DNA from: Chlorobiaceae bacterium
GTDB taxonomy: Bacteria > Bacteroidota > Chlorobiia > Chlorobiales > Chlorobiaceae
Assembly (NCBI GenBank): GCA_013334435.1
Contig: JAAXXP010000004.1
Coordinates: forward strand, 1 to 56,631
DNA: 56,631 nucleotides
Direction: 5' to 3'
Shown here: positions 20,162 to 27,154 of the stretch, in pieces
Numbering within the stretch: position 1 is the first letter of the stretch
How the letters are laid out: each line of letters begins with the position of its first letter
Program-made: the position numbers and the translations under genes
The notes under the pieces: generated by a model
Databases searched by the model: none
What the model was told of the DNA's origin: nothing
The model's input: only the letters and a program-made list of their open reading frames with translations

Positions 20162-20977
20162 ATGAATCTTTTCAGGAAAATAGTTTTCGGCGCGGCGGTT
20201 CTCGGTTTTATGGCCGGAGGAACTGCAGAGGCAGCAAACAAGATCGTCATGGACGGTTCGACCACGGTCGGTCCGATAGCCAAGTCGTTTGCCGCGTATT
20301 TCACCAAAACCACCGGTGTTCAGGTAACGGTAAGTGAGTCCGGTTCGGGCAACGGCGCCAAGAGCCTCATCAACAAAACCTGCGACATTGCCAACATGTC
20401 CAGAGAAATGAAGGACAAGGAGCTTGCCGCAGCAAGAGCAAAAGGCGTCAAGCCGGTCGAGCACATCGTCGCCATGGATGGCATTGCCATTGTGGTGCAT
20501 CCGGGCAACCGCGTGAACGCTCTTTCCAAGGCGCAGATTCGCGGCATCTACAACGGCAAGTACACCAACTGGAGTCAGGTAGGCGGTCCGAATGCCCGTA
20601 TCGTGGTGATCCAGCGTGAATCGAACAGCGGAACCCAGGACTCCTTCAAGGAACTGGTCATGGGCAAGGAATCCCCCATCACCAAGAATGCGGAAACCCA
20701 GGCCAGCAACGGTGCCGTGAAAAACCGCGTTGCAACGACTCCTGCAGCTATCGGTTTCATTGGTCTCGGTTTTGTTGACAGTGGCGTCAAGGCGGTTATG
20801 GTCGATGGTATCGAACCTGACGAGAGGACGGTCAAGAACGGGACCTATCCGATCACCCGTCCGCTTTTCATGTACACCAACGGTCCGGCTACCGGTGCCG
20901 TGAAGCAGTTCATCGACCTGAAGAGCACCCCCGAAGGCAAACGCATGATCAGCGAGCTTGGCTTTGTCAACCACTGA
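20162..20977 (+). CDS. pstS: Phosphate ABC transporter substrate-binding protein (copy 1)
   Basis: A periplasmic phosphate-binding protein of 271 aa. A signal peptide is followed by the typical first binding segment MDGSTTVGPIAKSFA, the SGSGNGAKSLI loop, the NMSREMKD segment, and the C-terminal-lobe motif VIQRESNSGTQDSFKELV. All face the phosphate in PstS structures. Length fits the short PstS type. A second copy follows 155 bp downstream, and pstCAB-phoU lie beyond. A strong terminator separates the two copies. Confidence 0.93.
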   Translation: MNLFRKIVFGAAVLGFMAGGTAEAANKIVMDGSTTVGPIAKSFAAYFTKTTGVQVTVSESGSGNGAKSLINKTCDIANMSREMKDKELAAARAKGVKPVEHIVAMDGIAIVVHPGNRVNALSKAQIRGIYNGKYTNWSQVGGPNARIVVIQRESNSGTQDSFKELVMGKESPITKNAETQASNGAVKNRVATTPAAIGFIGLGFVDSGVKAVMVDGIEPDERTVKNGTYPITRPLFMYTNGPATGAVKQFIDLKSTPEGKRMISELGFVNH

Positions 20978-21132: not shown

Positions 21133-21951
21133 ATGAAAACGATGAAGCATGTTCTGCTGCTGGCGGCTCTGTTCGCTGTGGCCGTATCCTCTCCGCTCTC
21201 TGCGGCGGGCAAGAGTATTGTCATGGACGGCTCCACTACGGTCGGCCCCCTTGCCAAATCCTTTGCGGCATACTTTACCAGAAAATACGGCGTCAAGGTT
21301 ACCGTCAGCGAATCGGGGAGCGGCAACGGTGCGAAAAGCCTCATCAACAGGAGCTGTGATATCGCCACCATGTCGAGGGCAATGAAAGCCCAGGAACTCG
21401 TCGCAGCGAGGAAAAAAGGGGTCAACCCGGTGGGACACACGGTGGCGCTCGACGGCATCGCCATGGTCGTTCATCCCGGCAATCCGGTACGGAATCTCAC
21501 GAAGGCGCAGATCGCCGATATCTACAAGGGGCGCATTACCAACTGGAACCAGGTAGGCGGTCCGACGGCGCGTATCGTGGTGATCCAGCGTGAATCGAAC
21601 AGCGGAACCCAGGAGTCGTTCAAAGATCTGATCATGGGTAAAACGGCGCAGATTTCGAAAACCGCCGAAACGCAGTCGAGCAACGGGGCTGTGAAGAACC
21701 GGGTTTCATCCACCCGTTCGGCAATCGGCTTTCTTGGTCTCGGCTTTGTTGACCGTTCGGTCAAGCCCGTTGCGGTAAACGGCGTGCTTCCCTCCCCGGT
21801 CACGGTAAGGAAAGGCATCTACCCGATTTCCCGTCCGCTCTATATGTACACGAACGGCCAGCCTGCAGGTTCGCTGAAAACGCTGATCGATCTGTCGAAA
21901 ACACCCGATGGAAAACGGATGATCACCGAGCTTGGTTTTGTCAATAAATAG
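21133..21951 (+). CDS. pstS: Phosphate ABC transporter substrate-binding protein (copy 2)
   Basis: A tandem paralogue (272 aa) of the preceding gene, with the same signal peptide layout and ligand loops (MDGSTTVGPLAKSFA, SGSGNGAKSLI, VIQRESNSGTQESFKDLI). Most differences lie in the leader and surface regions. The two copies share a 44-bp stretch with no mismatch across the binding motif, far above their average identity, which suggests recent gene conversion or strong constraint. Separate terminators allow separate expression, perhaps at different phosphate levels. Confidence 0.93.
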   Translation: MKTMKHVLLLAALFAVAVSSPLSAAGKSIVMDGSTTVGPLAKSFAAYFTRKYGVKVTVSESGSGNGAKSLINRSCDIATMSRAMKAQELVAARKKGVNPVGHTVALDGIAMVVHPGNPVRNLTKAQIADIYKGRITNWNQVGGPTARIVVIQRESNSGTQESFKDLIMGKTAQISKTAETQSSNGAVKNRVSSTRSAIGFLGLGFVDRSVKPVAVNGVLPSPVTVRKGIYPISRPLYMYTNGQPAGSLKTLIDLSKTPDGKRMITELGFVNK

Positions 21952-22156: not shown

Positions 22157-23323
22157 ATGATGAGTGAAGATGTTTTGAAAGAGAGCGGGCGTTCGGGAGC
22201 CTTTATCGTCAGCGCTCAAAAAAGGAAGATGCAGAAGCTCGCCAAAACGGCGGGAGAGTCGATATTGCTTCTTATCGCCTCGTTCGTTGCCATTGTCGTA
22301 CTCTTCATTTTCTATTTCGTCACTGTCGATGCGATTCCCTACTTTCAGCTGCAGGGATTCAGGGAGTTTTTCACCAGCAGCAACTGGTATCCTGCGGGCG
22401 ATCCGGGGGAGTTCGGCGCCCTGGCCATCATCTACGGAAGCGGTATGGTCACGCTCGGTTCGACGCTGCTTTCGGTGCCTATGGGCATTGCGGCGGCCAT
22501 CTGCCTCAGCGATATTCTTCCCTTTTCCGTTCGTCAGTACGCCAAGCCGGTTATCGAGATGCTTGCGGCAATCCCTTCGGTGGCTTTCGGCTTTTTCGCG
22601 CTGGTAATTTTCGCTCCGCTGCTTCAGACCCAGGGAGGGCCTATTCTCATGTGGGCATGGTGGATTCTTGCCGCTCCGTTTCTGCTTCTTGCCGTCATCG
22701 TCATATCGGACCTGCTCAGCGCCAAAATCGAAGACCCGAAACGCCGCCAGCAGATATCGATGTTCCTTCTTGTCGTTTTCGGCGTCGGTGCGCTCGCATT
22801 TCTCTACTGGGTGGGATCGGTGCTGCAGGGTATTGAAATCATCACCGGTACCAACGCGCTCAACGTTTCCATCATTCTCAGCTTCATGGCGCTTCCCACC
22901 ATCGTGAGCGTTTCGGAGGACGCCCTGCAGGCGGTAGGACGCGAACTTCGCGAAGGGAGCTACGCGCTTGGAGCCACACGAGCCGAAACCATCGTCAAAA
23001 CCATACTTCCCGCCGCCAGCAGCGGTATTCTTGCCGCGGTGATTCTGGGTGTCATGCGCGCTCTTGGCGAAACCATGGTGGTGTGGATGGCTTCAGGCAA
23101 CTCCTCGCATATTCCCGAGCCCTGGTTCAACTATCTCGAAGCGATAAGGACGCTTACGGCGACCATTGCCGGCGATATGGGAGAAGCCGACCAGGTGACC
23201 GGTTCGGCCCGTTATCATGTGCTTTTCGCAATGGGCCTTCTTCTCCTGGTCATCAGCTTTATCAGTAATCTGGTCAGCGAAAGGATTGTTGTGCGCCAGA
23301 GAAAGATTCTCTCCGGACAGTAG
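22157..23323 (+). CDS. pstC: Phosphate ABC transporter permease PstC
   Basis: An inner-membrane permease that pairs with PstA. It has 388 aa, longer than E. coli PstC (319), with an N-terminal cytoplasmic extension and an extra hydrophobic segment (ISMFLLVVFGVGALAFLYWV) in the middle. The ABC permease EAA loop is seen as REGSYALGATRAETIVKTIL, followed by ALGETMVVWMASG, the conserved PstC end of the substrate path. The start has tandem ATGs (22157/22160). pstA follows after 50 bp. Confidence 0.93.
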   Translation: MMSEDVLKESGRSGAFIVSAQKRKMQKLAKTAGESILLLIASFVAIVVLFIFYFVTVDAIPYFQLQGFREFFTSSNWYPAGDPGEFGALAIIYGSGMVTLGSTLLSVPMGIAAAICLSDILPFSVRQYAKPVIEMLAAIPSVAFGFFALVIFAPLLQTQGGPILMWAWWILAAPFLLLAVIVISDLLSAKIEDPKRRQQISMFLLVVFGVGALAFLYWVGSVLQGIEIITGTNALNVSIILSFMALPTIVSVSEDALQAVGRELREGSYALGATRAETIVKTILPAASSGILAAVILGVMRALGETMVVWMASGNSSHIPEPWFNYLEAIRTLTATIAGDMGEADQVTGSARYHVLFAMGLLLLVISFISNLVSERIVVRQRKILSGQ

Positions 23324-23373: not shown

Positions 23374-24720
23374 ATGAATCTCGGAACACGAAAGATACTT
23401 GACCGTTCATTTACCGCGGTCGGTTTCGGCTCGATTGCAGTTATGGGTATCGCTCTTCTCATCGTTCTGGCGCCCATAATCTATAACGGTATCGGCTCGG
23501 TGTTCTTTACCGGTACCCTCGAGCACCGAAACATGCTTTTCAATGAGTTCGGGCGGGGCGACAAGGAGGAGCTTGTAAAGGAAAATGCCGCATCGGAGGT
23601 ATATCGCAAGCAGATCTACGGCATGCTTGATGCATTCGAGGCGGAGCTCGAAACCATGGAGCCCGAAAAAAAGCAGGATTACCTCTCCAAATACGGTCCG
23701 GTGCGAACCGCCCTGCAGACACTGATCGGTCCGCTTCCGGGCGAAGAGACGGCGATCCTGACCCGCTACAAGTACGGGCAGACCAGATGGGAAAAGGCCG
23801 AGGAAAAGCTTCACGAGTTTCTCTACGAGGCCAAGTGGGATTACTCCAACCCCGACGTCATGGCTAAGGAGTATTTCGTCAGCCGGGCGGCAGAGTTCGA
23901 GGGAACCTCTCTGGTTAAACTGTTTCCCTATGTCGAGAAGCATCTTCCGGATGTGCTTCGTCCGCGCTTTACGGTTTACTGGGGATTCCTGACCGACAGT
24001 TCGGTCGATTCCCATATTTTCGGAGGTATCTGGCCGGAAATCCAGGGGACGTTTTTTCTGGCCGTCGGCGCCATGCTCTTTGCCTTTCCGCTCGGCGTGA
24101 TTGCGGCGGTCTATTTTACCGAATATGCAAGAGAGGGTTTTTTCAACAGTATATTACGCAGTGCGAACAGCACGCTTGCCGGGGTGCCCAGCATTGTGTT
24201 CGGTCTGTTCGGTCTGGCTTTTTTTATCAATACCCTCAAGGTGTCGGAGTCGAAGAGTGTGCTTGCAGGTTCGCTGACGCTTGCCATCATGATTCTTCCG
24301 ACCATCATCCGTGCAGCTGAAGAGGCCATTCTTTCGGTGCCGAAAACCTACAAGGAGGCTTCGCTGAGCCTCGGTTCCACAAAATGGAATACCATTATGA
24401 CGGTCATTCTGCCTGCGGCGCTTCCGGGAATTCTTACCGGCGGAGTTATCAGTCTCGGCAGGGCTGCCGGCGAGACGGCTCCCATCATCTTTACCGCAGC
24501 CGTGAGTGTTGGTTCGGCGATCGGTCTGGCCGATGTGTTTTCGTCGCCGACTCCGGCGCTTTCGTGGAATATCTACAATCTTGCCAGCGAGCACGAGGCT
24601 GCCGCCGAAATCAGGCATGTCCAGTACGGCATGGTGCTTGCGCTGGTAAGTATCGTGCTGCTTCTGAATTTGTCGGCAATTTTTCTGAGAGCACGTATTT
24701 CCAAAAAATTAAAAGGCTGA
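23374..24720 (+). CDS. pstA: Phosphate ABC transporter permease PstA with large insertion
   Basis: Partner permease of PstC. At 448 aa it is about 150 residues longer than E. coli PstA (296). The extra length sits between the first membrane helix (about 15-40) and the permease core that starts near residue 215 (GIWPEIQGTFFLAVG). It is highly charged and helical (ELETMEPEKKQDYLSKYG), so it should form a periplasmic domain. The core has the EAA loop TYKEASLSLGSTKWNTIMTV and GRAAGETAPIIFTAA. pstB begins 6 bp after the stop, indicating an operon. Confidence 0.93.
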   Translation: MNLGTRKILDRSFTAVGFGSIAVMGIALLIVLAPIIYNGIGSVFFTGTLEHRNMLFNEFGRGDKEELVKENAASEVYRKQIYGMLDAFEAELETMEPEKKQDYLSKYGPVRTALQTLIGPLPGEETAILTRYKYGQTRWEKAEEKLHEFLYEAKWDYSNPDVMAKEYFVSRAAEFEGTSLVKLFPYVEKHLPDVLRPRFTVYWGFLTDSSVDSHIFGGIWPEIQGTFFLAVGAMLFAFPLGVIAAVYFTEYAREGFFNSILRSANSTLAGVPSIVFGLFGLAFFINTLKVSESKSVLAGSLTLAIMILPTIIRAAEEAILSVPKTYKEASLSLGSTKWNTIMTVILPAALPGILTGGVISLGRAAGETAPIIFTAAVSVGSAIGLADVFSSPTPALSWNIYNLASEHEAAAEIRHVQYGMVLALVSIVLLLNLSAIFLRARISKKLKG

Positions 24721-24726
24721 GGAACC

Positions 24727-25587
24727 ATGCACATGACAGCAGATAGCCGGGAAACATCGCAGAAAGAGCAGGTGAAAACCGCAAATCGTGAGATTTATCT
24801 GCCTTCCGAGAGAAAAAACATATCCGGCGGCGGAACTCCTCATGTTGTGGCAAAGGATTTTTCCATCTATTACGGTGAATTCGAGGCGGTCAAAAAGGTA
24901 AACGCCGATATTCTTTCCAGATATGTGACGGCGATCATCGGACCGAGCGGCTGCGGCAAGAGCACCTTTCTCCGGGCGATCAACCGGATGAACGATCTTA
25001 TTCCGAGCTGCCATACCACAGGGGCGCTCAGGTTTGACGGCGAGGACATTTATGGTAAATTCACCGATGAGGTGCTGCTTCGCAAAAAGATCGGCATGGT
25101 GTTTCAGAAGCCGAATCCGTTTCCGAAATCCATTTTCGACAATATCGCCTACGGGCCGAGACTGCATGGCCTGAACGATCGCAAACAGCTCGCTGAAATC
25201 GTCGAGCGGAGTCTGAGAAAAGCCGCTTTGTGGGATGAGGTGAGCGACCGGCTCGACAAGAATGCGCTCGGTCTCAGCGGAGGTCAGCAGCAGCGCTTGT
25301 GTGTGGCCAGGGCGCTTGCCGTGGAACCTGAAATACTCCTGCTCGATGAACCGACATCCGCGCTCGATCCGAAGGCAACCGCAAAGATCGAGGATCTCAT
25401 CCAGGAGCTGCGGGGCAGTTACACCATCATGATCGTCACCCACAACATGCAGCAGGCATCGAGGGTATCGGATTACACCATGTTTTTTTATGAAGGTGTT
25501 CTGGTGGAGTATGCACGTACGGCACAGCTGTTCACCAACCCGAAGGACAGGATGACCGAAGATTATATAACCGGAAGATTCAGCTAA
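24727..25587 (+). CDS. pstB: Phosphate ABC transporter ATPase PstB
   Basis: The ATP-hydrolysing subunit that powers phosphate import, bound to PstCA on the cytoplasmic face. Walker [10 protein letters not shown], signature LSGGQQQRL, Walker [14 protein letters not shown] and the switch His in IVTHNMQQA are all present. The family-specific [11 protein letters not shown] after Walker A and YFFY-like [11 protein letters not shown] near the end are PstB features. Length is 286 aa; the first 37 residues are a variable extension. phoU follows after 18 bp. Confidence 0.96.
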
Positions 25588-25605: not shown

Positions 25606-26292
25606 ATGTCAGACAGACCGGTTCATGAACTTATCAAAGAGCTGTCCGAGTCGCTTGTTCAGCTTTCCGACAAGGTGTTGCAGAATTTCTACAACGCCCT
25701 TACCGCGGTAAAGAATCAGGACGAACAGCAGGCAAGGGAGATCAGACTGGTGGACGATGAGATCGATCTGACCGAAGTCCGTCTTGAAGAGCGCTGTCTT
25801 GCCTTTCTTGCCCTCCAGCAGCCGGTTGCCCGCGATCTGCGCACCATCGTGACCATCATGAAAATCAATGACGATCTGGAGCGGATCGGCGATCTGGCGG
25901 TTCACATCATCGAGCGTATGCCGGAAATCAACTCGGAGATGCTCGATAAATTCGATTTCGAAACGATGGGTCATCATGCCGGCGAGATGACCGCCAGGTC
26001 TATCGAGGCTTTTGTCAACAAGGACCGTATTCTTGCCGACCGGGTTGAGGCCATGGATGAGGAGATCGACGCCATGCACAGCGCCGTGTTCAAGAAAGTC
26101 GCCCGGCAGATGAAAGACAGCGAGGCCGATATCGACCAGCTTATCGCGGCGCTCAGCATTTCCCGTTATATTGAAAGAATGGCCGATCATGCCACGAGAA
26201 TAGCCGGTGAAGTTATCTATCTGGTTACCGGAGAAATTGCAAGGCACTCGGAAAGTTCATATGAAAAGCTTATCCAGTCGCTCAAGGATTGA
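25606..26292 (+). CDS. phoU: Phosphate signalling regulator PhoU
   Basis: PhoU restrains phosphate uptake and signals sufficiency through PstSCAB and usually a PhoR kinase. The 228-aa protein forms two three-helix repeats. Each holds the metal-cluster motif: DDLERIGDLAVHI in the first and RYIERMADHATRI in the second. It is the last typical gene of the pst operon, 18 bp after pstB. No phoR/phoB pair is found in the window. Confidence 0.95.
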   Translation: MSDRPVHELIKELSESLVQLSDKVLQNFYNALTAVKNQDEQQAREIRLVDDEIDLTEVRLEERCLAFLALQQPVARDLRTIVTIMKINDDLERIGDLAVHIIERMPEINSEMLDKFDFETMGHHAGEMTARSIEAFVNKDRILADRVEAMDEEIDAMHSAVFKKVARQMKDSEADIDQLIAALSISRYIERMADHATRIAGEVIYLVTGEIARHSESSYEKLIQSLKD

Positions 26293-26422
26293 ACCGGGGG
26301 ACACGGAAGTCTTCGAATGGGTGCGATTTGTTTTTTTTCCTTGAATTAACCCTTCCGGGAAACTAAATTGAAAGCACTTTTTCACATCCGGTTTTTTAAC
26401 GCAAGCATGGTATTGTAATCAT

Positions 26423-27154
26423 ATGGCAAATCTTTTAGGCAAGCTTTTCGGAGAGACACCGAAATCTGTCGAGACTCCGAAAGCGTTTACTATCCAGATC
26501 GATCCGGCCAAGTTCAATCTTTCCACCAAACCTGACGGTCCGGTTCATATTCAGCTTGAGTCGCTCAAGCAGAAGCTTACCAAGCTTTCCTCGAATGTCG
26601 AAAACAACCTGATGCTGAGCATTCGTGCATCGACCAAGAAAAATGTCGAGCTTGCCATGTCGGCGTTCAAATTCGACGAGGAGTATATCCAGAAAGGCAA
26701 GTTTGAAGTCGAGTATCTCACCCTTGCCTATGCATCGTTCCAGAATCTTAACGACGAGCAGCTTGCGGTTGTCAACAACGCCCGTATGATCCTGCAGGAG
26801 CTTGAACGGCTTGCGCAGTTTGCGCTCAATATTGCCGAAAAGGCTGCACATGTGCAGTTCGCCAATGTTCAGGAGCTGCACAAGGACGAATACGGTCTCA
26901 AGCCTATGGGCGACATTACCGCAGAAATGATCAAGAAAGCGGTCGAGGCTTTTGTAAGCGGGAATTCGAAACACGCCAGCGAAACACTCGACATGATGAA
27001 GGAAATACAGGACCTGTACGATAAGGCGCTGGTCAAGATCAAGTCTTCGGTCAACGATCAGAATATCACGAATCTGACCGGTATCCTCTCGATCCTCAAC
27101 CATGTCAAGGCCTCTGCCGATATTTCCTGCTCCATATCGCGCCATTTCTGCTGA
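26423..27154 (+). CDS. PhoU-like protein without metal-ligand motifs
   Basis: A 243-aa helical protein 130 bp downstream of phoU. Helix pattern and length match PhoU, and the segment ELERLAQFALNIAE aligns with DLERIGDLAVHIIE of the true PhoU. Asp of the ExxxD-type metal motif is replaced by Gln, and in the second repeat RYIERMADHATRI is matched by SILNHVKASADIS, without the acidic ligands. The N-terminal 45 residues are an extra polar segment. It may be a structural or regulatory paralogue that cannot bind the metal cluster. Confidence 0.65.
   Translation: MANLLGKLFGETPKSVETPKAFTIQIDPAKFNLSTKPDGPVHIQLESLKQKLTKLSSNVENNLMLSIRASTKKNVELAMSAFKFDEEYIQKGKFEVEYLTLAYASFQNLNDEQLAVVNNARMILQELERLAQFALNIAEKAAHVQFANVQELHKDEYGLKPMGDITAEMIKKAVEAFVSGNSKHASETLDMMKEIQDLYDKALVKIKSSVNDQNITNLTGILSILNHVKASADISCSISRHFC

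Follow-up and report, generated by a model that had tools for sequence, protein, structure and literature searches.

The pst-phoU locus and its 3′ neighbour

The window (that is, the whole 56,631-nt stretch of Chlorobiaceae DNA that was analysed) harbours a phosphate-uptake operon in the order pstS-pstS-pstC-pstA-pstB-phoU, followed after a spacing of 130 bases by a further gene, here designated D (Table 1). All five transporter genes passed their NCBIfam cut-offs. The window genome also encodes a pair resembling PhoB/PhoR, with a PAS domain, that scored below the curated cut-offs.

Both in the window and in orthologous loci, D is adjoined by pst-phoU and by an RND efflux pair, and it is linked to pstSCAB in the window and in most of the orthologous loci, not in all of them. 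D lies directly 3′ of phoU in 44 of the 48 loci with enough upstream sequence, a count that includes two loci with a split or truncated phoU. In the second genus of the family the phoU-D linkage is kept, though genes are often inserted between the two, and in three loci (L070, L072 and L074) pst-phoU has been relocated with D still in place. The conserved synteny and the lack of a plasmid match ruled out D as a recently mobile gene.

At two loci (L056:4635-4940 and L100, at about 4907) a C-terminal phoU remnant precedes D, with the complete phoU and pstA on another contig; these remnants record a relocation of the operon in which D stayed behind. The phoU of Chlorobium ferrooxidans DSM 13031 (L060:1361-2037) is present as two ORFs in the draft, owing either to a frameshift or to a sequencing error.

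Table 1. Coordinates of gene D, its flanking genes and its features in the window
Feature	Position	Strand	Basis or remark
First pstS	20162..20977	+	TIGR02136, 281.8 bits
Second pstS	21133..21951	+	TIGR02136, 277.3 bits
pstC	22157..23323	+	TIGR02138, 250.8 bits
pstA	23374..24720	+	TIGR00974, 277.5 bits
pstB	24727..25587	+	TIGR00972, 412.7 bits
Canonical phoU (228 aa, four metal motifs intact)	25606..26292	+	TIGR02135, 199.7 bits (cut-off 130.25)
-35-like TTGAAT before D	26341..26346	+	TTGnnn in 65/69 upstream regions
-10-like TAAATT before D	26364..26369	+	17 nt after -35; 69/69; invariant in intergenic alignment
D (PhoU-fold protein lacking the metal sites, 243 aa)	26423..27154	+	ORF with ATG start; PF01895; fold; 73 orthologues
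D N-terminal tail, residues 1-40, absent from PhoU	26423..26542	+	Predicted unstructured, pLDDT 36-78
D metal motif 1, broken: D85-E86...Q90 (PhoU D50xxxD54)	26675..26692	+	D54 position Q/R in 73/73
D metal motif 2, broken: E128xxxQ132 (PhoU E92xxxD96)	26804..26818	+	Q132 invariant, 73/73
D loop 144-158, helices 3-4, longer than in PhoU	26852..26896	+	Near-invariant N148 and L152-H-K-D-E-Y157 (K154 K/R)
D K183-H184, start of helix 5, invariant	26969..26974	+	PhoU has L at the H184 position
D metal motif 3, broken: M192xxxQ196 (PhoU D151xxxD155)	26996..27010	+	First ligand M/L/I in 73/73
D metal motif 4, broken: K229xxxD233 (PhoU E190xxxD194)	27107..27121	+	First ligand K/H/R/Y in 72/72
D Cys236	27128..27130	+	Invariant, 72/72
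D Cys243, last residue of the protein	27149..27151	+	Invariant, 72/72

The predicted fold of D is that of PhoU

D matched the Pfam PhoU family (PF01895) over two stretches with a score of 65.8 bits, well above the cut-off of 23.5, and thus its homology to PhoU is far beyond chance; against the NCBIfam PhoU equivalog TIGR02135 it scored 60.3 bits, under the cut-off of 130.25. A weak Phasin_2 match (E 0.08) was taken as chance. An AlphaFold2 model built on 53 orthologues (pLDDT 83, pTM 0.82) features six helices (residues 41-71, 75-104, 111-143, 159-179, 182-209 and 215-240) arranged as a double three-helix bundle, and a control model of the window's canonical PhoU has six matching helices.

When the model was searched against the PDB using Foldseek, the best match was the PhoU structure 1t8b (TM 0.75 by query and 0.87 by target, rmsd 1.9, E 3.8e-6), and all ten matches at E<=0.001 were PhoU-type structures, which rules out an unrelated helical fold. 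The first-pass annotation, which took D for a PhoU-like paralogue with its helical scaffold preserved, is therefore supported by both the family score and the match to PhoU crystal structures.

All four metal motifs and two PhoU signatures are lost in D

Ligand positions of PhoU were taken from the published E(D)xxxD motif (PMC5686610) together with conservation, and 73 D orthologues were compared with 54 adjacent canonical PhoUs. Intact motifs 1 to 4 were found in 0/73, 0/73, 0/73 and 0/72 of the D orthologues, respectively, as compared with 46/54 (the other eight having Asn), 54/54, 54/54 and 54/54 of the canonical PhoUs. In a further 18 PhoUs from the phylum, motifs 2 to 4 are always intact, and 15 of these proteins have all four. 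The first two motifs of D follow the patterns [D/E]xxx[Q/R] and ExxxQ (73 orthologues), while the third and fourth read [M/L/I]xxx[Q/D/K/E] and [K/H/R/Y]xxx[mostly D/E] (73 and 72 orthologues, respectively). For motif 1, the helix ends in the D and PhoU models put the one-residue insertion of D in the alpha1-alpha2 loop, so that the pair E86/Q90 is likelier than D85/I89; the motif is lost whichever register is used.

Two of these motifs had been described as degenerate from the window sequence. The change from GD to AQ is exact, as G95-D96 of PhoU aligns with A131-Q132 of D, with the glutamine the same in every orthologue. The change described as ERMADHA to NHVKASA holds in that the motif is degenerate, with E190 replaced by K229, but its register was two residues off: MAFFT, HMM and profile-profile alignments agree on the pairing of IERMADH with VKASADI, and D194 of PhoU stays D or E in most D orthologues.

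The loss reaches further than those two motifs. Besides all four ligand sites, the QPVARDLR signature between helices 2 and 3 is gone (P73 is replaced by L in 73/73, and V74 and A75 are mostly replaced), its PVA-D/E-L/F-R form being found in 18/18 other PhoUs of the phylum. Also gone is the alpha6 RxxERxxDH motif, which has been proposed as phosphate-binding in PhoU (PMC12301784). Over the whole D versus PhoU alignment, 23 columns are conserved differently between the groups and 47 are conserved in PhoU only. No orthologue with an intact motif was found among the 73.

Features newly conserved in D

The extra N-terminal segment that had been pointed out in D is borne out as a tail of about 40 residues, low in model confidence (Table 1) and carrying the invariant residues G6, K7, K14, P19, A21, F22, D27 and P28. 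With these residues fixed in a stretch predicted to be unstructured, the tail resembles a binding peptide. The window D has just two cysteines, Cys236 and Cys243, and three histidines (H153, H184 and H227) are invariant in D. Judged by the helix order in the model, H184, Cys236 and Cys243 would share one end of the C-terminal bundle.

The upstream region of D

Upstream of D, TAAATT with a -35-like hexamer 16-18 bases before it was found in 69/69 distinct upstream regions, which come from related loci and are not independent observations. The window pair (TTGAAT-17-TAAATT) was not called in a generic promoter scan, having 8/12 consensus matches at a threshold of 9. A strong terminator hairpin lies between phoU and D in one locus (L071) and such a hairpin is visible in four others (L040, L057, L067 and L069). 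From these sequence elements we infer that D is a separate transcription unit with its own promoter.

A further element, AAGCATGG, is conserved at 26403-26410 of the window and in the orthologous loci, about 15-20 bases 5′ of the D start codon. In many relatives it begins a tiny reading frame (for example, MVFEPYG) that ends over the D start.

Distribution, conservation and origin

D was found in 81 of the 86 Chlorobiaceae genomes (64 of the 65 good ones), comprising 60/65 in the window's genus (47/48 among its good genomes) and 21/21 in the second genus. It was not found in 12 other Chlorobiales nor elsewhere among the 395 phylum genomes searched, where the best match outside the family was at PhoU level (E 6e-14). 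Canonical PhoU was present in 65/65 good genomes of the family, so D would act beside PhoU, and D as a replacement for a lost PhoU was ruled out. Neither D nor PhoU was found at the thresholds used in one genome of the same order (G026, a single contig of 3.3 Mb). If, as we guess, G026 is Chloroherpeton thalassium, this result agrees with the published statement that the species lacks PhoU (PMC6616575).

D is not decaying, and its conservation equals or exceeds that of phoU. In the first locus set, invariant columns amount to 106/243 in D and 51/228 in the PhoU of the same loci. Compared with the window genes, D orthologues have a median identity of 81%, those of phoU 73% and those of pstB 86%, with D above phoU in 44 of 53 loci, and the pairwise omega of D, at 0.03-0.10, is within the range of phoU and pstB. 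In the phylogeny, all D sequences group in one clade (support 100/100), whose stem measures 4.59 changes per column. The long stem and the later conservation look like rapid change at first and constraint from then on. Since the stem is so long, the root and the exact sister group are uncertain and the parent gene cannot be placed; D may have come from an old transfer.

Other PhoU paralogues were met in the search. At locus L116 (contig C84; 1887-4451 and 5044-5742), the window genome has its second canonical PhoU, which adjoins an arsenite-oxidase-like molybdopterin oxidoreductase carrying a Rieske_3 domain and a gene matching a molybdate-type solute-binding protein. In some Chlorobium, a PhoU paralogue is followed by an LTSLEGAP-type repeat protein of 334-397 aa (L074:3818-4822, L099:4282-5289 and L101:683-1876); its repeats ruled out an assignment of this neighbour as PitA. 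One paralogue (L131; genome G056, contig C21) has GG for the first metal motif, with the other three intact.

Proposed role of D

The data suggest that D is a core regulatory adaptor and not a decaying copy. The reading that we favour, at a probability of roughly 55%, is that D is a neofunctionalised, metal-independent adaptor with the PhoU fold, which has its own promoter and works alongside PhoU, most likely in phosphate control. A phoU-type gene would have been duplicated before or in the common ancestor of Chlorobiaceae, and the copy that gave rise to D would have shed its metal- and phosphate-sensing residues and been rebuilt under strong purifying selection. With a promoter of its own, D would have been kept alongside the true PhoU and not instead of it. 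Its two three-helix bundles may serve as a docking scaffold, with partner proteins bound by the tail and by family-specific surfaces, that is, helix 1, the LHKDEYGLKPMGD loop and the end formed by helices 5/6. D would act most likely in the control of phosphate uptake, beside PstB-PhoU and the PhoBR-like pair, and would work without the metal-dependent switching proposed for PhoU; judging from its ligand positions, it probably carries no bound metal. The most likely role in phosphate control rests on the gene neighbourhood and on co-occurrence with PhoU; because D lost the presumed partner- or phosphate-contacting surfaces of PhoU, this link may instead be a relic of tandem duplication. Also counting against the favoured reading are the loci where D stayed behind when pst-phoU moved, the failure of the generic scan to call the promoter and the sub-cut-off scores of the PhoBR-like pair.

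The first-pass annotation had offered two roles, a pseudo-regulator competing with PhoU or a separate phosphate-linked adaptor. As a pseudo-regulator, D would pair with PhoU or replace it on PstB or on a PhoR-like kinase and so damp the PhoU signal. The shared fold, the position of D next to pst-phoU in most genomes and the canonical PhoU that always accompanies D in good genomes are all as such a role would have it. However, QPVARDLR (P73 to L in every orthologue), the alpha6 RxxERxxDH motif and many other positions conserved in PhoU are changed, and with 23 columns conserved differently and 47 in PhoU only, D is unlikely to make the same contacts as PhoU; the promoter-like sequence of its own also speaks against a fixed D:PhoU ratio. 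We regard the pseudo-regulator as a serious but unlikely alternative, since the two lost signatures, the new invariants and the apparent own promoter are better fitted by a separate adaptor than by a competitor.

Less probable is that the metal site was replaced by a new Cys/His site at the opposite end of the C-terminal bundle (H184, Cys236 and Cys243, perhaps with N181/K183), which would turn D into a sensor responsive to redox, sulfide or metal. The sole two cysteines of the window D, near or at its C terminus, are both invariant (72/72), H184 stands where PhoU conserves Leu, and by the helix order of the model helix 5 begins at the same end at which helix 6 finishes. Yet two cysteines and one histidine are few for a metal site, and their invariance may come from packing or partner binding. 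That the site formed by H184, C236 and C243 reads redox, sulfide or another metal and so ties phosphate control to sulfur-based photosynthesis is a still more speculative, improbable extension. Finally, a decaying phoU duplicate without function, for which the loss of motifs common to PhoU proteins might speak, is highly improbable given an omega of 0.03-0.095, 106 invariant columns and the retention of D across the family.

If the favoured reading of D as a metal-independent adaptor holds, D would be a natural case of separation of function, a scaffold without the metal site. Classical PhoU binds PstB and PhoR and represses the Pho regulon; it is regarded as a metal-dependent intermediary between Pst and PhoR, with the share of the metal in that work unsettled; in D, all metal motifs were stripped on one ancestral branch and the protein then stayed nearly unchanged family-wide beside an intact PhoU. 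Annotation by domain match alone would label D as PhoU and mask this difference. The phosphate supply of green sulfur bacteria is relevant to models of the early ocean (PMC6616575).

Relation to known PhoU-family systems

In the open-access literature on degenerate PhoU and on PhoU in Chlorobaculum tepidum, no account of D was found, and D is apparently an undescribed core gene of green sulfur bacteria. The presence of several PhoU-type regulators within one cell is already known (PMC13170248, PMC5686610); in the published accounts compared, the PhoU paralogues are described as either retaining their metal sites or serving other transporters.

Like classical PhoU (TIGR02135; structures 1t72/1t8b, 1sum, 4q25, 1xwm and 2i0m), D has two PF01895 domains and six helices and is found at the end of pstSCAB. 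It differs from PhoU in having no E(D)xxxD motif intact, no QPVARDLR and no alpha6 RxxERxxDH, and in its extra 40-residue tail, shortened helix 6 and terminal Cys. The other PhoU-like structures 3l39 and 2olt matched D far more weakly in Foldseek.

More than one PhoU-family protein per cell is also the case for PhoY1/PhoY2, for PhoU1/PhoU2 of M. smegmatis and for PhoU1/PhoU2 of S. epidermidis. The paralogues of S. epidermidis and M. tuberculosis are reported to retain their metal-binding sites (PMC5686610), whereas none of those of D is intact. The Pit- and NptA-associated PhoU-like regulators are, as is D, distinct from classical PhoU. Unlike the PitR family, D has no linkage to pitA, and unlike NptA-PhoU it is a stand-alone protein of 243 aa, not fused to a Na/Pi transporter: while the PitR/NptA-type regulators accompany Pit and NptA transporters, D is associated with pst-phoU.
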